Shown in pieces: positions 258 to 11,539 of a stretch of 48,802 bases of DNA. The stretch's first letter is position 1; each line of letters opens with the position of its first letter. A program made the translations under genes and the position numbers. The notes beneath the pieces are model-generated. The model had not been told where the DNA came from. It saw nothing but the letters and a program-made list of their open reading frames with translations, and did not search any database. The DNA is from Clostridia bacterium. GTDB lineage: Bacteria > Bacillota > Clostridia > Christensenellales > Aristaeellaceae. The stretch spans positions 1-48,802 of the forward strand of contig JAFRLY010000047.1 in the NCBI GenBank assembly GCA_017431005.1. Reading direction: 5' to 3'.

Positions 258-1016
258 CTATTCTTCCAGGTTCCTCGTAAGGTCATACATCATGATTCCC
301 GCGGCAACCGCGGCATTCAGCGATTCGGCACCGCCGCGCATAGGCAGACGGAGATGGTGCGTGGCCTGAGCCTGCACTTCCGGGGAAACACCGTTTCCCT
401 CGTTGCCGATAATCAGCGCAAACGAGGCTGATAATTCCTGCCGCTGATAAAAGGGATCTCCGTCCAGCTGGGAGGAGAGGATGGAAAAACCAGCCTCCCG
501 GAGGGATGAAAGCGCAGCAGGGAGAGAATCCGGAAAGGACAGACCCAGATGAAACACGCTGCCCATTGTGGCGCGCAGCACCTTGGGAGAAAAAACATCT
601 GCGCAGCCGGGACCCAGGAGGGCACCGGTAAACCCGGCAGCATCGGCAGTGCGCAGGATCGTGCCTACATTTCCGGGATCCTGCACCTGATCAAGAACGA
701 TAAGCCGTGGTCCCGAGGCGGGTCGCGGCGCAATGCGAACAACGGCGGCAATGCCCTGCGGTGTTCTGGTTTCGCAGACAGCATCGAAAACATGCGGCGG
801 AAGACAGTAAACGGGGATATCACTTTGCGTGCTTATATCAGGATCGGTATTCTCGCGGATGAGCAGCGTTTCCACCCGGAAACCGGAGGCCAGCGCTTCA
901 CCGACCATTTTCCGGCCCTCCACGAGAAAACAGCCGGCGGCTTCACGTCCTTTCCGGTCCTTCAGGGAACGCCAGGACATGACCTTTGGGTTTTTCAGCG
1001 AGGTTAATTGCTCCAT
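258..1016 (-). CDS. TrmH/SpoU-family 2'-O-ribose RNA methyltransferase (YsgA-like)
   Basis: The 252-residue protein has the SpoU-type layout. An N-terminal RNA-binding substrate domain (about 1-95, with a conserved FLVEGRK segment) precedes an alpha/beta-knot SAM-binding domain. The knot motifs are visible: DQVQDPGNVGTILRTADAAGF near residue 110 (motif 1, with the catalytic Asn and Arg), IIGNEGNGVS (motif 2) and LPMRGGAESLNAAVAA (motif 3). Family knowledge predicts SAM-dependent 2'-O-methylation of a ribose in 23S rRNA; the exact nucleotide cannot be read from sequence. An AAGGAGG sits about 9 nt before the ATG. The start overlaps the end of the giant gene by 13 nt, so it is the last gene of the minus-strand operon and is probably translationally coupled. 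Confidence 0.92.
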   Translation of the reverse strand: MEQLTSLKNPKVMSWRSLKDRKGREAAGCFLVEGRKMVGEALASGFRVETLLIRENTDPDISTQSDIPVYCLPPHVFDAVCETRTPQGIAAVVRIAPRPASGPRLIVLDQVQDPGNVGTILRTADAAGFTGALLGPGCADVFSPKVLRATMGSVFHLGLSFPDSLPAALSSLREAGFSILSSQLDGDPFYQRQELSASFALIIGNEGNGVSPEVQAQATHHLRLPMRGGAESLNAAVAAGIMMYDLTRNLEE

Positions 1017-4000
1017 AATGCAGAGCCTCCTTCTGTCAGCTGATGTTCACCATAGATCTCCATCAGTATATGGGGCCAGGAAGCCAGTGCATCGAATGGC
1101 CGGAGAACCTGACTCTGATTGGCAAAAGCAGCGGCAATGGAAGAAGAAATAACAGACTGGCCTGATGCAGTGAACGGCTGCAGCGGATTGCTGCCGTAAA
1201 GATCGGGGAACAGAAGAAGCGCTTCACCGGGAAACTCCTGAAGAAAACGAAGCATGAATTCCGGTAGGAGCTCTTCCGGACGCAGGGAGACAGATACGGG
1301 TGCAGGCGAAGCGGGGGGCATTCCCGCCACAGCGTCTCCGGTCACAGACAGGCCGACTGCAATTTCCAGCTTTTTTTCAGAAGAAAAGAGGAGAGAGAGA
1401 GAAGAAACCTTCCGGTTCCTGAACATGGTCAGGATATGCCAAAGTCCGGTTTTTACGGGAACGGAAAACGCGTCGGGCAAAGCTGCACCGCGGCCGGCCA
1501 GGAACAGCGTCATCTGCTCCGGAAGAAAATCATTCCGGTTGGAATCAACGGAAAGCTGAAGCAGCAGAAGCCCGGACAGCATCATCAGATAACTCAGGTA
1601 AAAGAGGATCAGAGCGCCGGTGCGGACGGGACGGTTTTCACTTCGGCAGCGGGCAGCGGCTGACAGCAGAAGAGGCAGCCGGTCAGCGGCAAGCGTATCC
1701 AGGGCCAGACGGGCATGGCGCAGCATACCGGGATCCCGGGTAGCATCCCGCAGAATGCCTGAAAGCGTCCGCAATTCCAGAAGAAGGTTCTCATCTCCGA
1801 TGAAGGAGAAATCCCGGAACAGCATTTCCGGATTTTTCATCAGGGAAGGGAGCAGCATATACTGGATGCCGAGAGGAAGCTGGCAGGTCCGTTCTGCGTG
1901 ATCTCTTCCCCGCATGAACAGGGAAAGATCCGCAGTGGAAGAGCCCAGATCCAGCGTCATAAAGCCGCCGCGGGTATCCTCCGGTGCAACCAGTCGGAAG
2001 TATGCGCCAAGCGCTGTACTTTCCGAAGCAAAACTGACGGGAGGACGATGATCCGGGAAGGGAAGAACACTTTCAGCGGACACCTGTTCCGCCAGGGAAC
2101 GGGCGAGGGATATCAGGCTTTCCTTTCCTTCAACTGTGGCATCATCCGGCAGGGAAAAACGCCAGCTCAGAGAGCAGGCTCCTTCAGAACGGGCCTGGAA
2201 AGCAGCGAGAAGCATTATCTCATGAAGACAGATACGCAGAGAACGGCCTTTTTCCCCGTTCCATTTCAGTGACGTATAAACAGCATCTTCCTTTAACAGA
2301 AAAACATCGCGAAGACTGGATGCCATCAGCAGAATTCCGTCACGGAAAGGAACCGGAGCAGCCCCTGCTGTGTTCTGAAAAATCCGGACGGCCGCAGGAA
2401 TCAGCGCGGAAACCGGAACAGCCGGCAGGAATTCCTGCCTGAGAAGATCGGCTGAAGTGGAAGGATTGGATAAAATCAGTCTGACTACACCGGGGCCCTG
2501 AAGCGGCTCATGAATACTCCCGCGGCTCAGCATAACAGAGGCGGCGGATGAGCCAAGATCAATACAGACCATGGTATCTTCCGATGCATTCAGACTGATC
2601 TCAGGGAGGAGATTTATAAGAGATCCTACCGGATTCTCACCCTGCCAGAGAGAAAAGCAGGAGGGGAACTCCTCCAGGATCATGACAGACCTTGATATGC
2701 TGTCGCTCATTGTCCGGGATGATCCGGAAGAAGCACACCCGGCGCTGATGCTGAAACCGGCAGATATATGAGAATAGACCGTATAGAGCTTCCATTTATC
2801 CGGAGGCAACGGAACTGCCGGCCAGACTGCCACGGTCGGAATATCCTGGGCGAACAGGGAAAGAAGCTCCGTGGGTTCATATATCCGGCGCATTCTGAGA
2901 CTGAAACCGCCTTCCAGGGTCAGCGTTACCTGAACTGCCCCGTTTTCCAGACGGGAAAAAGAAAGCAGATCATGCTGCACAAGGGTGCGCCCCTCCGGGA
3001 AAGCGCAAAGCGCTGATACAAAGTCCGGAGAAAGAGGCGGAAGGACGGTATCGGATGCCGGTACAGATTCCGTACCGGCGTCCGGGCGGACATAGGCGGG
3101 CAGAATGCACTGGGAACGGAATACAATGTCACCGATAATATCCTGATTCCGTGCGGGGAAAACAGTCAGCTTTGAGGTGAAGAGCGAGGCTGCCGGGCCC
3201 GCCAGATCCGGCCCAAGGCATTCCTGAAGTATTGTCCGGATGGAGGGAGAGGCCGGATCCCAGGGCCAATCCAGCAGTGTTTCCTTTTCGGCAATGGGCT
3301 TTTCCGCATCGGTCAGGAGCTTCCAGGCAATGGAACGAGACTGCTCGGCGGCTTCCGGAAAGCGGGCAAGGAGCTCCTGCAGATTCCGGCAAAGGGCCTC
3401 ACGGTAATCATCCGAGCAGTCAGAGAGCATGACACATTCCTTATTCAGGGTGGATAAAACATATTCATCCTCCGGTACATGCAGACTGCACATCAGGGAG
3501 GAAGGATTTTCGCGGGCAAAGGGAATCCCTTTCCAAAGATAAACGGCTTCGGGATCTGAGCCGGGTTCCGCGGGCGGATAATCCGCCGTGTCAGTCAGAG
3601 CAGCGCAGACAGGATCCGACGCAAGAAGATGCTCATAAACCGGCTGAATCCGGCTGATGACAGAGCGGAAAGCAGGAAGATCGGCCAGCGCGCATGCAGC
3701 CTTCAGACGCATGGACAGATACGGATCTTCTGATTTTTCAGATACGGATGAACTGAGATCGGAAACAAACATGTGCAAAAAGCGGCTGAAGACGGCATCC
3801 GGCCACTCGTTCCCCTGATCATCGCAAATCCGGTTCAGCTGATTGATCAGAATGCTTTGATCGGTCAGACTCAGCGCAGATACCGGATCGCGGAATATGC
3901 CGTCATTCCGGCTGAACCAGGTGGCATAGGACGGAATGAATGCCGGGAAGGAAGCAGAACGGCGGGCGGGGATTATCGTGCGGCAGGGAAGAATGAGCGC

Positions 4001-6238
4001 CATGGGACAGGAACCAAGCGTATCCGATTCCAGACAAATCAAAACAACATGATCCGCGCCTCTGCAGCTGAGCCATGTGTCCAGCACCGGAGAAGACGCA
4101 TCCGAAGAACTGCGCAGTGTATGCAGCCGCAGGGAAGCTTCTCCGCTGCTCAGCCGTCTGTAAGGCCGGAGCAGCAGCATGGCCAGAAGTCCGCGCAGAT
4201 CCTCAGCATCGGAAGAGTCAGCGCCTGCGGAAGGCAGGACGGATTTCAGCGCGTCGAAAGAGAGCAGGGGTTCCGGCGAATCCGCATCCGGAAGCAACGC
4301 AACATCGGGGATTTCATCGGGCACATGGAACCGCTGCCCGGACAGACCCGCAGAACAGACAGACCAGGCAGAGGCAAAAAGCTGCACAACAGGATCCGCT
4401 GCGCCGGAAAAAACGCAGCTGTCTGCAAGCTCCCGGAACAGATCCCTGGGATCCTGCACCGAAAAACCGGCGAACAAAGCCGGAAGAAGGTCCAGAGTTT
4501 TCTTTTGTGCGGCAGCGGTCTGAGCCGGGTCTGAAGCCAGGAGCAAATCAGATATGGCTTCTGCGGCCGGGGCAGTCAGCAGTTCAGAAGCGTTAAGCTG
4601 TTTTTCAGGATGGCGGGAGAGTGAGGAAAGCCGGGGATAGGCACCATAGACAGCCAGGTCATCCCGACAGCGGGACACAGCGGCTTCAAGCAGGCGGATC
4701 CGCCGCTCCCGGAGACCGAGATCCAGCGGGTCAGCGGTTTCCATGCCGGCTGCCTCCCGGAACTGTTTCCGGGCCCGTTCCAGTGCGGAAAGACATTTGT
4801 CCAGGCAATTCTGAAGCACCTGACGGGCGCGGTAGCCTCCGAGCTCTGAAAGGATTTCGGATCTTTTTTTGAGAGAGTCATTCAGAGCCTCCTCCTGCTC
4901 TGAAAGCCTGGACTGGACTTTTTCTTCCTCTGTATCCGCCATGGAGGCTCTGTGAACGGGCTTCATGTGATCAATACCCGCGTCTTCAGCTTCCTGGCGT
5001 GAAACATCATATTCAGCGGCAAGCGTAACAGAATGACCGCAGGCGGCTACCGCCCGGCGCCAGAGGAGGCTGTTGCGCTCTGCCAGGCGCAGCGGATCAG
5101 GAATGGACCGGATCAGGGCGACCGTTTCTGAAAGAAATGCTTTTATCACGCGTTCCAGAAGCGCCAGCCCGGACGAATTTTGAACAGGGGGGTTACCCAT
5201 CTGCCTGATACATTTTCTGAAAAAACCGGCACGGGAGGAGGGAGTCAATGCCCGCAGCACCGGTGTTTTTTCCAGCTCTGACCGCAAGGAAGGCAAGAGG
5301 TCTGACAGGAACCAGCAGGCGGAATGAATCAGAGCAGCAGCAGAAGCCGCCTGTGTATCCAGCGAGGCGAAGGAGACGACTTCAGGAATATTCAGTGTAT
5401 GAAGGCCGGCAGACGGAAAACGGAGACGGGAGGCCAGCCGGCCGAGAACGCGTGCGGCAGCTATGTAAACAAGACGGAAAGATTCGCGGCTTTTGGCCAT
5501 GGAGGACGGCAAAGAGATAAGCCAGGCAAAATCAGCACCATGCCCCGGGCGATCCTCCGTCAGCGATAAAAGGCCGCGCAGACTGAGTGCATCCAGTACC
5601 TGATGAAGCACCGGCATAAATCTGTCTTCATCCCCGGAAAGCGTCTGAGGCATGCAGAGCAGGTTCAGCTTCACATTGCTGCAGGCATCCAGTTTTTGTT
5701 TTACAAAAGAAAGCAATGGCAGGGTCATCCCGGCGGACAGAGGATCACAGAGATCGGTCAGGAGCGTCAGGATTGCTTCCTGCTGCCCGGGAAGCTGCTG
5801 AATCCCTCGCAGGAAAGCTACCAGTTCCGCGGGAGGAGCCGGATCGTTCAGACGGGACCGGAATGCCCATTCAACTGCTTCCCAGTCCGTCGGATAGGAG
5901 AGGGGCACACCTTCTCCGCGAAGAGCAGAGAGCAGCAACCTGTCAGATTCCCTGGAAGAAAGGTCAGAGACAGCAGGCAGGGAAACCGTACAGGAAGAAA
6001 ACTGAAAAGAAAAAGGAAAGAGGGACGCCCCGTTCGCAAACAGGGCGTGACACTCATTATAATCCTGAATCAGAGGCATCAGAATCTGATCCGGAGACTG
6101 TGTATCCAGGGAAAGAATTGAAAGGACAGAAGAATCCGGATCAGCCGGACGATCCGAAAGCCCCATGGAAAGCGCTGTAACCATAGAGGGAAGCGCTTTG
6201 GCGGCATGCGGGCCAACGGCAATTAAGAAGGTCTTCAG
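1004..6238 (-). CDS. Giant protein with actin/Hsp70-like C-terminal half, unknown function
   Basis: This encodes about 1744 residues if translation starts at CTG 6238, or 1726 from the first ATG (6184). CTG is preferred: AGAGGTG lies 7 nt upstream, while the ATG has no ribosome site. The 18 added residues include a hydrophobic beta strand and glycine (FLIAVGPHAAKAL) that resemble a nucleotide-binding N-terminus. A charged, probably coiled-coil segment lies near residues 433-505. Residues from about 1223 carry an actin/Hsp70 phosphate-1-like motif (VCIDLGSSAASVML), about 1427 a phosphate-2-like motif (TLDLGSSTADLSL), and about 1576 an adenosine-like motif (LFLAGRGAA). There is no signal peptide and only one weakly hydrophobic stretch, so it is probably cytosolic. 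The composition is rich in Leu, Ser and Ala. It sits between galE and an rRNA methyltransferase, with its ribosome site abutting the galE stop. It could be related to SrfB-type or tubulin-like proteins; I cannot confirm this. The substrate is unknown. Confidence 0.8.
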   Translation of the reverse strand: MKTFLIAVGPHAAKALPSMVTALSMGLSDRPADPDSSVLSILSLDTQSPDQILMPLIQDYNECHALFANGASLFPFSFQFSSCTVSLPAVSDLSSRESDRLLLSALRGEGVPLSYPTDWEAVEWAFRSRLNDPAPPAELVAFLRGIQQLPGQQEAILTLLTDLCDPLSAGMTLPLLSFVKQKLDACSNVKLNLLCMPQTLSGDEDRFMPVLHQVLDALSLRGLLSLTEDRPGHGADFAWLISLPSSMAKSRESFRLVYIAAARVLGRLASRLRFPSAGLHTLNIPEVVSFASLDTQAASAAALIHSACWFLSDLLPSLRSELEKTPVLRALTPSSRAGFFRKCIRQMGNPPVQNSSGLALLERVIKAFLSETVALIRSIPDPLRLAERNSLLWRRAVAACGHSVTLAAEYDVSRQEAEDAGIDHMKPVHRASMADTEEEKVQSRLSEQEEALNDSLKKRSEILSELGGYRARQVLQNCLDKCLSALERARKQFREAAGMETADPLDLGLRERRIRLLEAAVSRCRDDLAVYGAYPRLSSLSRHPEKQLNASELLTAPAAEAISDLLLASDPAQTAAAQKKTLDLLPALFAGFSVQDPRDLFRELADSCVFSGAADPVVQLFASAWSVCSAGLSGQRFHVPDEIPDVALLPDADSPEPLLSFDALKSVLPSAGADSSDAEDLRGLLAMLLLRPYRRLSSGEASLRLHTLRSSSDASSPVLDTWLSCRGADHVVLICLESDTLGSCPMALILPCRTIIPARRSASFPAFIPSYATWFSRNDGIFRDPVSALSLTDQSILINQLNRICDDQGNEWPDAVFSRFLHMFVSDLSSSVSEKSEDPYLSMRLKAACALADLPAFRSVISRIQPVYEHLLASDPVCAALTDTADYPPAEPGSDPEAVYLWKGIPFARENPSSLMCSLHVPEDEYVLSTLNKECVMLSDCSDDYREALCRNLQELLARFPEAAEQSRSIAWKLLTDAEKPIAEKETLLDWPWDPASPSIRTILQECLGPDLAGPAASLFTSKLTVFPARNQDIIGDIVFRSQCILPAYVRPDAGTESVPASDTVLPPLSPDFVSALCAFPEGRTLVQHDLLSFSRLENGAVQVTLTLEGGFSLRMRRIYEPTELLSLFAQDIPTVAVWPAVPLPPDKWKLYTVYSHISAGFSISAGCASSGSSRTMSDSISRSVMILEEFPSCFSLWQGENPVGSLINLLPEISLNASEDTMVCIDLGSSAASVMLSRGSIHEPLQGPGVVRLILSNPSTSADLLRQEFLPAVPVSALIPAAVRIFQNTAGAAPVPFRDGILLMASSLRDVFLLKEDAVYTSLKWNGEKGRSLRICLHEIMLLAAFQARSEGACSLSWRFSLPDDATVEGKESLISLARSLAEQVSAESVLPFPDHRPPVSFASESTALGAYFRLVAPEDTRGGFMTLDLGSSTADLSLFMRGRDHAERTCQLPLGIQYMLLPSLMKNPEMLFRDFSFIGDENLLLELRTLSGILRDATRDPGMLRHARLALDTLAADRLPLLLSAAARCRSENRPVRTGALILFYLSYLMMLSGLLLLQLSVDSNRNDFLPEQMTLFLAGRGAALPDAFSVPVKTGLWHILTMFRNRKVSSLSLLFSSEKKLEIAVGLSVTGDAVAGMPPASPAPVSVSLRPEELLPEFMLRFLQEFPGEALLLFPDLYGSNPLQPFTASGQSVISSSIAAAFANQSQVLRPFDALASWPHILMEIYGEHQLTEGGSALWSN

Positions 6239-6250
6239 AGCCTGTCACCT
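6239..6250 (-). promoter_or_regulatory. Ribosome binding site that points to a CTG start
   Basis: On the minus strand AAGAGGTG directly follows the galE stop and lies 7 nt before CTG 6236-6238. An in-frame TGA lies three codons before that CTG, so no other conventional start is possible upstream. The only ATG (6184) is about 60 nt away and has no purine-rich site. This spacing decides the start of the giant gene. Confidence 0.65.
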
Positions 6251-6252
6251 CT

Positions 6253-7269
6253 TCAGGATTTGTAACCCTTCGGATTGTTTTTCTGGAAACGATAGGTATC
6301 GCGGCACATATCCTCCAGGTTCTTTTCAGCCTCCCAGCCAAGCAGTTTTTTTGCCTTGGACGGATCGGCGTAGTTTTCAGCGATATCCCCCGGACGGCGC
6401 GGAGCGATCACATAGGGCACATCCACATGGTTAACCCGGGAGAAGGTGTGAACAAGGTCGAGCACCGAGTATCCATGACCGGTACCCAGATTGATAATCT
6501 CGCATCCGGACCGGCCTGCAGCGAAATCACAGGCTTTGACATGGCCTCTGGCCAGATCGACCACATGAATATAGTCACGGACGCCCGTCCCGTCCGGTGT
6601 GGGGTAGTCATTGCCGAAAACCGAAAGCTTTTCAAGCTGTCCGACAGCGACCTTAGCCACATAGGGCATCAGATTATTCGGAATGCCGGAGGGATCCTCA
6701 CCGATCAGACCGGATTCATGTGCGCCGATCGGATTGAAATAGCGCAGCAGCACCACGCTCCATTCCGGATCGGCCGTATGCTGACCTTCCAAGATTTTTT
6801 CGATCATGAATTTTGTCCATCCGTAGGGATTGGTGCATCCCATGGAGGGCATATCCTCGCGATAGGGAACTTCCGGCTGCTCACCGTAAACGGTGGCAGA
6901 GGAGGAAAAAACGATACGCTTTACGCCGTGAGCCTGCATGACCTCGCAGAGGGTCAGCGTGGTATCCAGGTTATTCCTGTAATAGCGCAGCGGCTGGGCG
7001 ACGCTTTCACCTACAGCCTTCAGACCGGCGAAATGAATGACGGCGTCAAAATCATTTTCATCAAAAATATGGTTCATGGCAGCCGCGTCAGAAACGTCCG
7101 CTTCATAGTGAGGAACGGGGCGCCCGACGATTTTTTCAATCCGGCGGATTGCTTCAGGAGAGCTGTTCACATAATTGTCCACAATCACCGGATCGTGACC
7201 TGCCGTGCAAAGCTCCACACAGGTATGGGAGCCGATAAACCCGGCGCCGCCGGTCAGAAGAATCTTCAT
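6253..7269 (-). CDS. galE: UDP-glucose 4-epimerase
   Basis: The 338-residue protein is of normal GalE length. It belongs to the extended short-chain dehydrogenase family. The NAD-binding glycine motif GGAGFIGSH is at residues 7-15, the catalytic Ser sits in FSSSATVYGE, and the Tyr/Lys pair in the segment YGWTK. The C-terminus carries the sugar-binding YVIAPRRPGDIAENYAD region. It interconverts UDP-glucose and UDP-galactose, providing galactosyl donors for surface polysaccharide and entry into the Leloir pathway. GGAGG is about 7 nt before the ATG. It follows the nucleotidyltransferase by 37 nt, and its stop codon touches the ribosome site of the giant gene, so all belong to one operon. Confidence 0.96.
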   Translation of the reverse strand: MKILLTGGAGFIGSHTCVELCTAGHDPVIVDNYVNSSPEAIRRIEKIVGRPVPHYEADVSDAAAMNHIFDENDFDAVIHFAGLKAVGESVAQPLRYYRNNLDTTLTLCEVMQAHGVKRIVFSSSATVYGEQPEVPYREDMPSMGCTNPYGWTKFMIEKILEGQHTADPEWSVVLLRYFNPIGAHESGLIGEDPSGIPNNLMPYVAKVAVGQLEKLSVFGNDYPTPDGTGVRDYIHVVDLARGHVKACDFAAGRSGCEIINLGTGHGYSVLDLVHTFSRVNHVDVPYVIAPRRPGDIAENYADPSKAKKLLGWEAEKNLEDMCRDTYRFQKNNPKGYKS

Positions 7270-7306: not shown

Positions 7307-8212
7307 TTACAGTGCGGGCGGATAGCTGCCGTTCTCGTGCAGCTTCTTCAGTTCGCCCATGACATAAGGCTTATCTTCCTTATAGGTTACGCCGAACCAG
7401 ACCGCTTTCGTGGAAAGCACTTCCACCTTCAGCCCCTTGGTATGCATCAGCGTATCCACAAGGGCAGGGAGCAGGCATTCCTTCTTGAGCGGGTTGCCGC
7501 TGTCATCAGCCAGGAAATCTGCGAGGTATTTTTCAGCTTCATCAAAGAATGAAGGAGCAAAGCCCCACAGATTCATGGACACCAGGGCATCCGGATCCAG
7601 AATGACACCGTTCGGGTCATCGTTTATGTCGCGGATCGTCCCGTCGGGGAAGGGAAGGATGCTGTAAGTTTCCGTAACCTTGACGAGATGATGCTCCTCA
7701 TCCGTGGAACATACGCCGCGGGTCACATGACCGTTTTTAGAGACCGTGTTTTTCAGATAATAGGCAACCATGGACGCCTTGTTGGTCTCGTTGCGCAGAC
7801 GATGCAGGGAGTCCGCCATGGCGATAAACGCATCCTTGCCATAATAGTCATCCGCGTTGATTACAGCAAAAGGCTCATGAATCAGATCTTTGGCGCAGAG
7901 CACCGCATGGACTGTGCCGTAAGGCTTGGTACGGTCAGCCGGGGGAATAAACCCGCCGGGCAGGGAGTCATACTCCTGATAAGCGTATTCAACCTGAACC
8001 TTTTTGGCGATTTTGTCACCGATCATTTCCCGGAAAAGAGAATCCATGCTTTTACGGATAACAAAGACCACTTTATCAAAACCGGCTTCCACAGCGTCAT
8101 GAATGGAATACTCCATCAGGATTTCACCGTTGGGTCCGATCCGGTCGATTTGCTTATTTCCGCCGTAGCGGGATCCGAGACCCGCAGCCATAATCAGCAG
8201 GGTAGTGTTCAT
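7307..8212 (-). CDS. Sugar-phosphate nucleotidyltransferase
   Basis: The 301-residue protein has an N-terminal nucleotide-binding Rossmann-like fold of the NTP-transferase family. The signature MAAGLGSRYGGNKQ is at the start, a PYGTVHAVLCA segment near residue 95, and the metal-binding region AVINADDYYGKDAF near 115. Enzymes of this family join NTP and a sugar 1-phosphate to give an NDP-sugar and pyrophosphate. Which sugar and base are used cannot be told from the sequence; UTP:glucose-1-phosphate or a mannose-1-phosphate type are both possible. Its ATG overlaps the stop of the phosphoglycosyl transferase gene as ATGA. galE follows, so a nucleotide-hexose supply role for envelope polysaccharide is likely. 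Confidence 0.88.
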   Translation of the reverse strand: MNTTLLIMAAGLGSRYGGNKQIDRIGPNGEILMEYSIHDAVEAGFDKVVFVIRKSMDSLFREMIGDKIAKKVQVEYAYQEYDSLPGGFIPPADRTKPYGTVHAVLCAKDLIHEPFAVINADDYYGKDAFIAMADSLHRLRNETNKASMVAYYLKNTVSKNGHVTRGVCSTDEEHHLVKVTETYSILPFPDGTIRDINDDPNGVILDPDALVSMNLWGFAPSFFDEAEKYLADFLADDSGNPLKKECLLPALVDTLMHTKGLKVEVLSTKAVWFGVTYKEDKPYVMGELKKLHENGSYPPAL

Positions 8213-9633
8213 GTTTCTTTTTCTCCTTTTTCATTTTTTGCGCTTTTTATTTCCTGATCCGGGGCCTGGGTAAAGCCCTGGGTGGAATCTTTTTTGGTGA
8301 GGATCGTAAAGGTGCGGAGCAGCAGCTTGATGTCCAGCCAGATGGAGAAGCTTTCGATGTACATCATGTCCAGCATCAGCTTGTCTTCCGCTGTCGTATT
8401 GTAACGACCCTCGATCTGAGCGTAGCCTGTCAGCCCGGCTTTCATTTTTTCACGGTATACAAAGGCCGGCAGCTCAATTTTGTAACGGGCAACATTGGCC
8501 ATCATTTCAGGCCGGGGCCCCACCAGCGACATATCACCGATGAGAATGTTGAAGAACTGAGGCAGCTCGTCCAGACGGAACCGCCGCAGGAAGGCTCCGA
8601 TCCTGGTGATTCTGGGATCGTGAACCGTAATGGAGGTCTGAAGATCCTCCGGGATATCATTGGGCTTCATCGTGCGGAATTTCCGGATGGTGAAGGTCTG
8701 TCCGCCGGCGGTGACACGGGGCTGACTGAAGATGACAGGCCCTCCGTCTTCAGCCTTGATCAGCAGCGCGATGATTGCCATGAACGGGGAGAAAATGATC
8801 AATGCCAGCGCGGAGAGGAATATGTCTCCCGCCCGCTTGACCAGCTGCTGAAAAAACGAGGATTTGTTATACTCCATTTCCAGGAAGGCTGCATCATCCA
8901 CCACCGCGGGCCTGGCATTGCACAGCATAATTTCCTGCAGCTGCGCTTTGCACATAACATCCTTCCGGTCATCATAGCACATCTTCAGGAGAGCGAATTT
9001 GACATCCTCCGGCACCTGCCCCAGAAAAATGACATCCGCCTGATCAATGCGCGCTTCCAGATCAGGAACATTATACAGCACGGCATCATCAACGCGCCAC
9101 TGCAGCCTGTATCTGCCGATCTTGGCACGAATCTCCTGCTCCTGGGAAGGAGAGCCCAGAATAATCAGGCAGCTGCGCGGAGGATGAAAACGAAAATACA
9201 GGTCATTCCCAAGACGCACGAACACGATAATGAGAAGAGACTGAAGAAACATGCACAGCAGGAGCAGCAGAAAATCAGCTCCGAAGAGAATCAGGTGATC
9301 ATTGAAATTCTCGTTGACATTCATAATCTCCAGCTGGAGATAGGTGACCAGATCCGTAATCAGCGTGCCTGTAATCATGGCGGAAATGACCGGCTTGGAT
9401 TTCTTGCGGCCGACGTCATATCCCCCGTAAACGGCATGCATTGCAAAAGTCATGGCCCAGAAGGTCAGCATGGTTGTTGCAAACGTCCGGTTGATGACCC
9501 GGAGGAAAATATTCCGTGCAGACAGACAGGCAAAGAAGATAAAACAAAGACATATATACAGGATGAGGGACATCAGTCCGATCATGATATCTGACTTGAA
9601 ATGGTGAGAGGACTGCGCCTGTCCGGAAGCCAC
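8209..9633 (-). CDS. Polyprenyl phosphate sugar phosphotransferase (WcaJ/WbaP-type)
   Basis: This 474-residue membrane protein has about four N-terminal helices (roughly residues 15-140), a cytosolic Rossmann-like middle domain, and a C-terminal bacterial sugar-transferase domain from about residue 265. The catalytic domain begins with a membrane re-entrant helix (KRAGDIFLSALALIIFSP). It then shows FTIRKFRTM, the catalytic Asp-Glu pair in RLDELPQ and the GDMSLVGPRPE motif. Such enzymes move a sugar-1-phosphate from an NDP-sugar to undecaprenyl phosphate, the first step of a surface polysaccharide. Translation starts at GTG (9631-9633) with GGAGGG 6 nt upstream. It is the first gene after the promoter at 9668-9697. 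Downstream NDP-sugar genes fit this role. Confidence 0.93.
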   Translation of the reverse strand: MASGQAQSSHHFKSDIMIGLMSLILYICLCFIFFACLSARNIFLRVINRTFATTMLTFWAMTFAMHAVYGGYDVGRKKSKPVISAMITGTLITDLVTYLQLEIMNVNENFNDHLILFGADFLLLLLCMFLQSLLIIVFVRLGNDLYFRFHPPRSCLIILGSPSQEQEIRAKIGRYRLQWRVDDAVLYNVPDLEARIDQADVIFLGQVPEDVKFALLKMCYDDRKDVMCKAQLQEIMLCNARPAVVDDAAFLEMEYNKSSFFQQLVKRAGDIFLSALALIIFSPFMAIIALLIKAEDGGPVIFSQPRVTAGGQTFTIRKFRTMKPNDIPEDLQTSITVHDPRITRIGAFLRRFRLDELPQFFNILIGDMSLVGPRPEMMANVARYKIELPAFVYREKMKAGLTGYAQIEGRYNTTAEDKLMLDMMYIESFSIWLDIKLLLRTFTILTKKDSTQGFTQAPDQEIKSAKNEKGEKET

Positions 9634-9697: not shown

Positions 9698-9726
9698 TCC
9701 CGATCGTTGCCCGCGGGAAAAAAGGA

Positions 9727-9755
9727 TTTACATCCTGCCGGATCAATGATAAACT
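9727..9755 (+). promoter_or_regulatory. Probable sigma-A promoter of the tilS-ftsH operon
   Basis: TTTACA (9727-9732) and TAAACT (9750-9755) have a 17-bp spacer and lie about 55 bp before the ATG at 9812. The -10 box is imperfect. It lies inside a nominal open frame that begins further upstream, which supports the downstream start. Confidence 0.55.
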
Positions 9756-9811
9756 ACCATAATGAGTTGTTATGCTCATTTGTTGGATGCAATCCAGGAA
9801 AGGAATCTGTC

Positions 9812-11539
9812 ATGAATCAAAGGCAGCAAGGGAATCCACCCCATCAGGGTTCGTTTACCGGATATAACCAGATTCAATATAACGCACAGAATCCGGGAGG
9901 CTATTCTTATTCACCCCAGAACAGCGGGCGCCAGCCTGTCAGTGCAGGATACTTTCAGCAGAATGCTTATCCGACGCAGGGAGCCGGCAACGTGCAGGCA
10001 GCGCCGGCTTCCGCGAACTATTATCCGCAGGCCGGCGGTTATGCGCAGAATCCGTCTGGCTATACTCAGCAGGCGGGCTATCCTCAGCAGAATGGCTATT
10101 CCCAGCCGCAGGGCAGCAGCTTTTATCCGCAGGGCGGTTATCCGCAGAATACCGGAACAGGATACAGCCGCCCGGATCTTTATCAGCAGGGCGGCTATAT
10201 GCCCGTGAACGGGTCCGGCCAGCCTGCAGGCGTCTATCCGGCAGCGGGTATGGGAAGCGGCTATCCGCAGCAGCCCTATACCGGTTCCGGCGGATATCCC
10301 CAGCAGGGCGGAAATGTTCCGGAAACCGGGAGCCCCTATATTCCTCAGACACCTTACGGAAACGGGTACAACGGGCAGGGGCAGAGCTATACCTATCCGC
10401 AGCAGGGTTACGGAGCCTACCAGCAGATGGGCCGGAATGCTGCAGGGCCGAATGTACAGCCGATGACGGACAGCGCCCGTCAGATTCCTCTGAACGGCGC
10501 CGGTTATGTTCCGCAGCCTGTCCCTGTGCGGAAATCTCCCTTCAGGCTGACGGATACCTGGCTGATTATTATCAGCGTACTGCTGCTGATCCTGTTTGCA
10601 GCAGGAATGTTCGGGCCGGGCCTCAGTGCGCTCAGATGGATTTTCATGGTGCTGGCCGCCGGGAGTATCGCCGCGCTCTGGGTACGCCCCCTGACAGCGG
10701 GCAACAAGAGACTGTGCTATACCCTGGTTTTCGGTGTGCTTTGCCTGGTAACTGCCATCAGTATGGCAGCGGGAGCGGGCGGAAACAGCCGGAACGGCGG
10801 GAATGCTCAGAGAACAGATCCGCCGGCCGTATCCCAGGAAGCGTCGCCCACATCGAATGCAGACCTGTCCGGCGGAGTTGTTCTGGACGGCCAGAGCGGA
10901 CAGACGATCAGCAATATCCCTGCTGCCGCTCCGACAGAGTCACCGGCTCCGAAGGATGACAATTCCGCAGTGGAAAGGCTTCAGAGCTTTTTCTATTACT
11001 GGAACGCGAATCAGATTGATGAAATGCTGCCGCTGTGTTCCCCGTCCTGGCAGAGCGGCCTGGAGAGTCCGCGGACGTCGCTGTTTGCCCTGATGGCAAA
11101 CCGGAGGCCGCTTGAGCTGACGTCTGAAAACATTACCGGGACCAATGATGATGACAGCAGAACCGTTACAATCTCCGTTCTGATGGACAGGAACAACAAC
11201 AAGGATCCTGTCAAGTACCGGATGAACGTGATGATGGTGAAGGAAAACGGGGAATGGTATGTGGATCCCCAGAGTCTGAAATCAAACGAGCGTGAGACGG
11301 AAACCCCCGATGTCTCAGCATCACCGTCCCCGTCTCCTGAACCGGCTACAAATGCGGCGACGGTGCTGTATTACAATCCGGAGGGCGGAACGAAATACCA
11401 TCTGGATCCGAACTGCAAAAGCACTCATGAAAAGTATCTGCCGTTCAAGGGGCATTTCACCTACGGTGAACTTAACAACGCCAATTATGCCTCACTGACT
11501 CCCTGCAATGTATGCGGAGCACCTCTCAGACCGCAATGA
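9812..11539 (+). CDS. Membrane protein: Q/G/Y-rich tail, NTF2-like domain, Cys/His ribbon
   Basis: The 575-residue protein has four parts. Residues 1-245 are low complexity, dominated by Gln, Gly, Tyr, Pro and Asn in repeated YPQQ/GY units, and lie in the cytosol by topology. Residues 250-320 hold three membrane helices. After a Ser/Pro/Thr linker, residues 386-490 resemble an NTF2-like (DUF4878-type) domain (SFFYYWNANQID and NGEWYVDP). Residues 518-575 form a small module with YHLDPNC and CNVCG, a likely metal-binding ribbon. Start: AGGAAAGGA lies 7 nt before ATG 9812; the open frame extends 35 codons upstream but through the promoter region. The stop overlaps the tilS start as ATGA. Function is not known. 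The domain order suggests a sensor or envelope protein. Confidence 0.82.
   Translation: MNQRQQGNPPHQGSFTGYNQIQYNAQNPGGYSYSPQNSGRQPVSAGYFQQNAYPTQGAGNVQAAPASANYYPQAGGYAQNPSGYTQQAGYPQQNGYSQPQGSSFYPQGGYPQNTGTGYSRPDLYQQGGYMPVNGSGQPAGVYPAAGMGSGYPQQPYTGSGGYPQQGGNVPETGSPYIPQTPYGNGYNGQGQSYTYPQQGYGAYQQMGRNAAGPNVQPMTDSARQIPLNGAGYVPQPVPVRKSPFRLTDTWLIIISVLLLILFAAGMFGPGLSALRWIFMVLAAGSIAALWVRPLTAGNKRLCYTLVFGVLCLVTAISMAAGAGGNSRNGGNAQRTDPPAVSQEASPTSNADLSGGVVLDGQSGQTISNIPAAAPTESPAPKDDNSAVERLQSFFYYWNANQIDEMLPLCSPSWQSGLESPRTSLFALMANRRPLELTSENITGTNDDDSRTVTISVLMDRNNNKDPVKYRMNVMMVKENGEWYVDPQSLKSNERETETPDVSASPSPSPEPATNAATVLYYNPEGGTKYHLDPNCKSTHEKYLPFKGHFTYGELNNANYASLTPCNVCGAPLRPQ

Follow-up and report, generated by a model that had tools for sequence, protein, structure and literature searches.

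A predicted natural gene fusion joining a Tubulin_2-like part to a large actin-like ATPase in a genus of rumen Clostridia

Here we describe a gene of rumen Clostridia that, by comparison with its relatives, is a natural fusion of a Tubulin_2-like gene with the gene of a large actin-like ATPase. It lies on the minus strand, at 1004..6238, of a stretch of 48,802 nucleotides (the window; Clostridia bacterium, assembly GCA_017431005.1, contig JAFRLY010000047.1, positions 1 to 48,802). Across the fused forms of the window's genus, the alignments show the glycine loops of the tubulin part to be absent and the ATPase motifs of the actin part to be retained, and we consider it probable that the gene product combines a pseudo-GTPase tubulin module with an actin-like ATPase in an ATP-driven assembly or scaffold. 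We know of no natural chain that has both an actin-type and a tubulin-type part. The initial annotation of the window had read a protein of about 1744 residues at this place without giving its strand, and had conjectured that one chain might join two cytoskeletal-type NTPase folds. The frame exists, and the conjecture of a joint chain is supported by the matches of its halves to two separate, adjacent genes of a sister genus and by the controls made on the tubulin half.

Results

The two halves correspond to adjacent genes in related bacteria

In a genome of the sister genus (G176), a Tubulin_2-like gene of 694 amino acids (aa) overlaps an actin-like gene of 1204 aa by 4 bp, and in a genome from another family of the order (G058) a stand-alone actin-like frame of 1268 aa lies directly downstream of a tubulin-like frame of 596 aa. 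Both halves of the fused protein match the G176 pair in profile-profile alignment (Table 1). For the N-terminal half, the profile of split tubulin-like proteins matched the window family with an E-value of 9e-10, and the first 589 residues scored 83.3 against this profile and 90.1 against the G176 protein, compared with a maximum of 21.2 in 16 shuffles of each and with 14.4 and 15.8 for the reversed versions. These matches support a shared descent of the N-terminal half with Tubulin_2-like proteins. The shuffled and reversed controls cover the tubulin half, not the actin half. For the latter, the window family matched the split actin-like protein of G058 over residues 1063-1630 (E 3.7e-14), and the G058 protein and the window protein found each other reciprocally (E 4e-9 and 1e-9). 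Between the halves lies a charged linker; by reading, the G176 tubulin-like protein ends in a similar charged tail.

The tubulin half has lost its glycine loops and the actin half has kept its ATP motifs

The names of the motifs discussed here (T4 loop, connect-1, phosphate and adenosine motifs) and the label ASKHA for the fold of the actin-like half are what we take these elements to be. The motif counts draw on 30 of the 32 genus genomes with a match, the window's own included (all except G035, locus L006, and G024); of the rows counted, L018 is without its N-terminal end and L065 and L067 are cut by contig ends. In six split tubulin-like proteins (alignment A8) the glycines of both tubulin loops are invariant. 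In the fused forms the GG[TS]G of the first loop is kept in 0/29 and the GGTG of the second, T4-like loop in 0/30. The phosphate-1, connect-1, phosphate-2 and adenosine motifs of the actin-like half occur in the order of the ASKHA fold, and the invariant columns of an alignment of six split and three fused actin-like proteins (A7) take in the ATP-motif positions. The initial annotation had pointed out the phosphate-1-like, phosphate-2-like and adenosine-like motifs, which are indeed present and conserved (29/29, 29/29 and 28/28); the second aspartate of phosphate-2 is kept in 28/29 fused forms, L017 having an asparagine. Its wording of two NTPase folds holds in part: the N-terminal half is tubulin-like by descent, but neither of its glycine loops is intact in any fused form examined, and so the term NTPase probably fits the actin half only.

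Shortly before the adenosine motif, residues 1542-1560 (window 1559-1615, minus strand) form a strongly hydrophobic stretch of 19 residues with a mean hydropathy of 2.24. It is also found in the L022 and L003 homologues, and both a buried helix and a membrane contact are possible.

The fusion is spread through one genus and appears to have arisen once there

A search of 61 genomes with the window protein gave matches in 33: its own, 31 of 36 others of the genus and 1 of 24 from other families. The genus, whose public records include the goat omasum metagenome-assembled genome Clostridia bacterium RGIG2719 and RUG111, carries homologues whose main matches have 34-50% identity, some of full length and others truncated at a contig end; the five genus genomes with no match are 60-79% complete. 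A chance resemblance, which a lack of relatives of similar length would have suggested, is ruled out by these 31 homologues, by the matches of both halves to G176 and by the shuffled controls. An assembly artefact joining two genes is likewise ruled out, since frames of more than 1700 aa recur across the genus and are present as well in genomes assembled into no more than two contigs (G002, G022 and G035). A phage origin was considered and rejected, since the window protein matched none of 50,697 phage records.

Maximum-likelihood trees of each half grouped seven fused sequences into one clade (100/100). In the actin-half tree G176 stands beside the fused clade (100/98), and in the tubulin-half tree a split parts the fused sequences and G176 from the other 11 tubulin-like rows (97/91). 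In the tubulin-half tree the fused clade sits on a branch of about 3.4 changes per column (the sum of 2.86 and 0.51 to either side of the midpoint root); the corresponding branch of the actin-half tree has 1.6. The trees hold 7 of the 19 fused rows, the tubulin tree without G310 (gene in two frames) and the actin tree without G039 (contig ends), and they have several long end branches and an uneven letter make-up. On the rows used, the fusion has a single origin in the genus. Among 120 genomes of the family, the actin-like gene was found in 35, across 13 of 50 genera; the 5 matches in the window's genus have frames of 1727-1783 aa and the 30 in other genera frames of 897-1502 aa, the unfused state of these 30 being read from frame length, with the neighbour opened in G176 alone. 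A retained separate tubulin gene was sought with the G058 tubulin query in the window genome and three other genomes of the genus, and none was found.

Weak and negative matches

Several results weigh against the reading of the gene as a tubulin-actin fusion. Neither Pfam nor NCBIfam has a family that claims the window protein or 19 fused members. The Tubulin_2 matches of seven split homologues, at E-values of 6e-6 to 0.07 (L074 6.3e-6, G176 1.3e-5 with 25.1 bits, G492 1.7e-5, L075 5.6e-5, G058 0.0034), all lie under Pfam's cut-off of 27 bits; the 19 fused members had no Tubulin_2 match at E-values up to 0.1, and a Tubulin_2 search of the window's own genome gave none. Against two other single proteins the N-terminal half is closer to noise: the G058 tubulin-like protein alone scored 27.8 (shuffles up to 21.1; E 0.028), which is weak but colinear, and that of G039 scored 16.5, at chance level. 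The genome scan with the split tubulin profile did not detect the window's N-terminal half. With the genome's own FtsZ the tubulin-like profiles aligned out of register, and they retrieved no entry from the PDB.

For the actin half, one PDB search favours the ASKHA reading: A7 returned 15 sequences at E-values up to 10, and 14 of them belong to ASKHA proteins (Hsp70, actin, FtsA and others) and align at phosphate-1 or phosphate-2, but these matches are individually insignificant (best E 0.094). The whole fused profile gave 12 chance-level sequences (E 0.3-0.6), none at ASKHA motifs: 11 are chains of IMP nucleotidase, and the only actin-like chain is placed against the wrong half of the protein. 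A smaller actin-like profile (A3) found MreB alone, at E 0.36. Family profiles of FtsA, MreB and Hsp70 had no match in the window protein (to E 1) or in 19 members (to E 0.1). A7 matched the genome's own FtsA weakly (E 0.013), at phosphate-1, with a score of 29.0 compared with a maximum of 18.5 in 8 shuffles. Membership of the SrfB family was rejected, with no Pfam match for the fused protein, 19 fused members or the G058 and G176 proteins scanned. In addition, the folds of both halves are predicted from sequence, and the polymerisation, ATPase activity and location of the fused protein are predicted properties.

Gene start and neighbourhood

In most homologues an ATG or TTG aligns with the CTG at 6238 and opens a similar N-terminus and first strand, which in many of them reads MK[ST][FY]LL..[VI]G; a start at the CTG of the window keeps this conserved N-terminus. 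Since the CTG is also preceded by a Shine-Dalgarno-like site, it is likelier than the ATG at 6184, and it is a plausible start codon of the fused gene.

Table 1. Features of the fused gene and of its neighbours in the window
Feature	Residues	Position	Strand	Details
SpoU/TrmH-type rRNA methyltransferase		258..1016	minus	Pfam E 3.2e-38; overlaps fused gene by 13 bp
Fused tubulin-like/actin-like gene (predicted)		1004..6238	minus	1744 codons from CTG at 6238; 1726 from first ATG at 6184
Actin-like half	about 678-1722	1073..4207	minus	hhalign against G176 actin-like protein, E 1e-60
Adenosine-like motif	1574-1590	1469..1519	minus	LAGRG; G-x-G in 28/28
Phosphate-2 motif	1425-1444	1907..1966	minus	LDLGSSTAD here; D-x-G in 29/29
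Connect-1-like motif	1401-1415	1994..2038	minus	SESTALGAYF here
Phosphate-1 motif	1221-1237	2528..2578	minus	D-x-G in 29/29 fused forms
Charged, helical-looking linker	about 433-545	4604..4942	minus	read from alignment of 19 fused members
Tubulin-like half	1-487	4778..6238	minus	hhalign, 19-member profile against G176 tubulin-like protein, E 8.9e-11
Degenerate T4-like loop	160-176	5711..5761	minus	GS[IV]FGGTGA of relatives replaced, DPLSAG here
Degenerate first loop	4-16	6191..6229	minus	GG[TS]G of unfused relatives replaced
Shine-Dalgarno-like AGAGGTG		6246..6252	minus	7 nt before CTG
galE-type epimerase		6253..7269	minus	Pfam Epimerase E 2.4e-52; 14 nt upstream of CTG
Nucleotidyltransferase		7307..8212	minus	Pfam NTP_transferase E 3e-08
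Bacterial sugar transferase		8209..9633	minus	Pfam Bac_transf E 1.9e-60

The placement between galE and an rRNA methyltransferase, given in the initial annotation, is borne out by Pfam, with both genes on the same strand as the fusion. Across 21 loci of the genus (19 distinct genomes, two taken twice, with a flank of about 1.5 kb in most and 10 kb in two), the SpoU/TrmH methyltransferase lies within 0.5 kb downstream of the fusion in all 21, and galE or the nucleotidyltransferase is present in the fetched flank of 17, both being absent there in L017, L018, L019 and L021. The setting had been called a polysaccharide operon; neighbours of that kind are there in 17/21 loci, but the association is positional only, the methyltransferase being the constant neighbour and no polysaccharide gene recurring in the unfused cassettes opened.

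An unfused tubulin-actin cassette occurs in other bacteria and on mobile elements

Outside the genus the two genes were found unfused, in a cassette whose order is lipoprotein, small membrane protein, tubulin-like and actin-like gene in G058, G176, G207 and G751. G085 and G492 have recognisable lipoprotein, tubulin-like and actin-like genes (the small gene being outside the check), the contig of G039 ends inside the tubulin-like gene, and in G310 the tubulin-like gene is in two overlapping frames (L055:10249-11699, minus), through a frameshift or a sequencing error, with a marginal lipoprotein match (E 0.0023). The cassette occurs in Bacillota, on mobile elements, on plasmids of cyanobacteria and on a replicon of Prevotella. 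When 200 genomes of the order were searched, the tubulin query from G058 matched 5 and the actin query from G058 matched 8, namely four fused genes of the window's genus and four of the five genomes of the tubulin query; the fifth, found by the tubulin query only, is G039 with its contig edge. Among 398 genomes of the phylum, matches to the actin-like profile were confined to the window's own genome and G751, and matches to the tubulin-like profile to G751, where the two genes are adjacent; a search of 291 genomes of the class with the actin-like profile gave the window's own genome, G310 and G492.

On two contigs of a viral collection (L074 and L075) a small hydrophobic protein is followed by tubulin-like and actin-like genes; the tubulin-like profile found both, though the actin-like profile had no relative in that collection. 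The cassette of L075 is near a relaxase and a tyrosine recombinase (Pfam) and that of L074 near a frame reading like a serine recombinase, and the upstream lipoprotein-like frames of both were not recognised by the lipoprotein profile. On plasmid Cy782204 of Gloeothece verrucosa PCC 7822 the cassette comprises RS34005, RS34010 and RS34015, with a divergent lipoprotein, RS34000; on a plasmid of Picosynechococcus sp. PCC 73109 it runs from RS15335 to RS15320, with AWQ23_RS15325 and RS15320 as the unfused tubulin-like and actin-like pair. The cassette is also present in Prevotella sp. oral taxon 299 (small gene outside the check).

In 8 of 13 cassette lipoproteins we found a D-x-[ST]-x-S followed by M-x-G, resembling a metal-ion-dependent adhesion site (MIDAS); G176 has a variant and four have none. 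A lipobox-like site fits 12 of the 13 under a loose pattern. The label von Willebrand factor A (vWA) rests on this motif, because the lipoproteins scanned had no Pfam vWA match, the sole one belonging to a neighbouring protein of G039. Among the Pfam-scanned neighbours of the window there is no vWA protein. A retained vWA lipoprotein was also looked for in the genus (the window's own genome and 23 others) and rejected, the matches being at the signal or lipobox end only (E 1.7e-5 to 5.2e-3); in five such loci that were opened, the longest frame is solute-binding-like in L045 and uninformative in the other four.

Some cassettes are followed or accompanied by further genes. In G492 (L056:11499-17369) motor genes resembling ZorA (PADLOC, E 3e-11) and ZorB (E 5e-19) come after the cassette, together with a frame of 1139 aa with no Pfam match. 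A Sel1/NPCBM protein of 1369 aa follows the cassette of G058 (L024:3602-7711), and similar frames are found after those of G207 (1409 aa) and G085 (cut by the contig end). The Gloeothece plasmid bears a second, shorter actin-like protein, CYAN7822_RS33865 (830 aa; L076:747-3239), with no tubulin-like gene beside it, and also TIR and WD40 genes.

Discussion

That the two genes are fused argues strongly, on genetic grounds, that the Tubulin_2-like protein and the large actin-like ATPase act as one machine where they are unfused, and it gives an orphan Tubulin_2-like family a concrete set of partners. It is also a natural experiment, in which a tubulin fold is without its GTP loops where it is tied to actin.

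FtsA and FtsZ are an actin-family and a tubulin-family protein that work as a pair in bacterial division. We hypothesise that the unfused pair would likewise form a membrane-linked apparatus of two filaments or two scaffolds, the outer part of which may sense or hold something at the envelope through its MIDAS. By the fusion the two partners would have come to a fixed one-to-one ratio in the window's genus, with the tubulin fold becoming a pseudo-GTPase module for assembly or docking, and the ATP cycle of the actin half would drive assembly and disassembly. The search of 24 genomes of the genus gave no convincing lipoprotein relative, so that the fused protein is probably a simplified scaffold of the cytoplasm, placed at the membrane or close to it. 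The fuller proposal, of a tubulin domain with no GTP site that is run by the ATP cycle of an actin-family part on the same chain and derives from an undescribed, mobile, envelope-linked tubulin-actin apparatus, we regard as having about an even chance of being right. The fused protein differs from the division pair in having no match to the FtsA or FtsZ families, and the window's genome has its own separate ftsZ and ftsA genes, so that the fusion would be an extra system.

Among described systems, the closest are operons of FtsZl1/Tubulin_2 with vWA proteins, GTPases, kinases and OmpA, for which a role in membrane remodelling has been predicted (Makarova and Koonin 2010, PMC2875224); Tubulin_2 is an FtsZ-like group (PMC9871819). 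The unfused relatives are of this kind, being Tubulin_2-like and accompanied by a mostly MIDAS-like lipoprotein and membrane proteins, so that the initial statement that no described system of this form with such neighbours was known does not extend to them. However, the genomic context as given in PMC2875224 names no actin-like partner, and in the window the tubulin part, which is without glycine loops, shares one chain with an actin-like part. A MIDAS-bearing periplasmic vWA domain also acts together with an actin-like filament in McaA and MamK, which position magnetosomes (PMC9512821); no tubulin partner or fusion is described in the available excerpts of that source. Among the literature matches listed, none was recognised by its title or the start of its abstract as a paper on an actin-tubulin fusion or on the cassette (preprints and most subscription journals lying outside the collection).

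It is possible, although we hold it rather unlikely, that the gene is by descent an immunity or conflict module and may still act so, with a regulated assembly of tubulin and HSP70 type triggering a response, as proposed for the GAP1-N2 systems. In those systems (Kaur et al. 2020, PMC7159879) the proteins with a tubulin domain have coiled coils at the C-terminus, and an extracellular vWA protein and sometimes HSP70 are present as well; the unfused cassettes near a relaxase and recombinases (L075, L074) and on plasmids would suit such a role. With the ZorA-like and ZorB-like genes after the G492 cassette, the one locus in which a likeness to Zorya is seen, these mobile settings make a conflict role of the ancestors possible. 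However, in PMC7159879, as far as its excerpts go, the tubulin genes with vWA and the HSP70 genes belong to different, non-overlapping themes and no tubulin-HSP70 fusion is described. No GAP1/DO-GTPase or P-loop GTPase was present among the neighbours given to Pfam (a subset of the neighbours), and the four scanned in the window belong to families other than those of Zorya. PADLOC had no match for the fused protein, the G176 pair, the G492 tubulin-like protein or the G058 actin-like protein, and one weak match for the G492 actin-like protein (E 0.0084). In the genus the gene is core-like, with its fixed methyltransferase neighbour, and not island-like.

Somewhat less probable still is a scaffold that organises the synthesis of surface polysaccharide, as the place of the gene behind a sugar transferase, a nucleotidyltransferase and galE might imply. 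The same strand and tight spacing in the window, the recurrence of galE or the nucleotidyltransferase in most genus loci and, upstream in G176, a frame that by reading resembles a glycosyltransferase are compatible with it, but the four loci that lack both genes in the fetched flank still have the methyltransferase, and the cassettes opened showed no recognisable recurring polysaccharide gene.

The ASKHA motifs would fit sugar kinases and Hsp70 as well, and the best PDB matches of A7 are Hsp70s, so the protein could be an enzyme or chaperone outside the cytoskeleton, with its N-terminal half a mere docking domain. We judge this improbable, since the fused protein has no kinase or Hsp70 match in Pfam and the unfused relatives have a recurrent tubulin-like partner, though the second actin-like gene of the Gloeothece plasmid stands without one. 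A partition system for plasmids or other DNA, like ParM or TubZ, is brought to mind by the cyanobacterial plasmids but is very hard to credit for a genus-wide gene with a fixed rRNA methyltransferase neighbour, given that no DNA-binding partner was recognised in the loci scanned and that the pair is accompanied in the cassette by hydrophobic membrane proteins and a predicted lipoprotein.

Other observations

Next to the polysaccharide genes of the window and divergent from them, a frame of 610 aa (9707-11539, plus strand) begins with a long N-terminal stretch rich in Q, G, P and Y.

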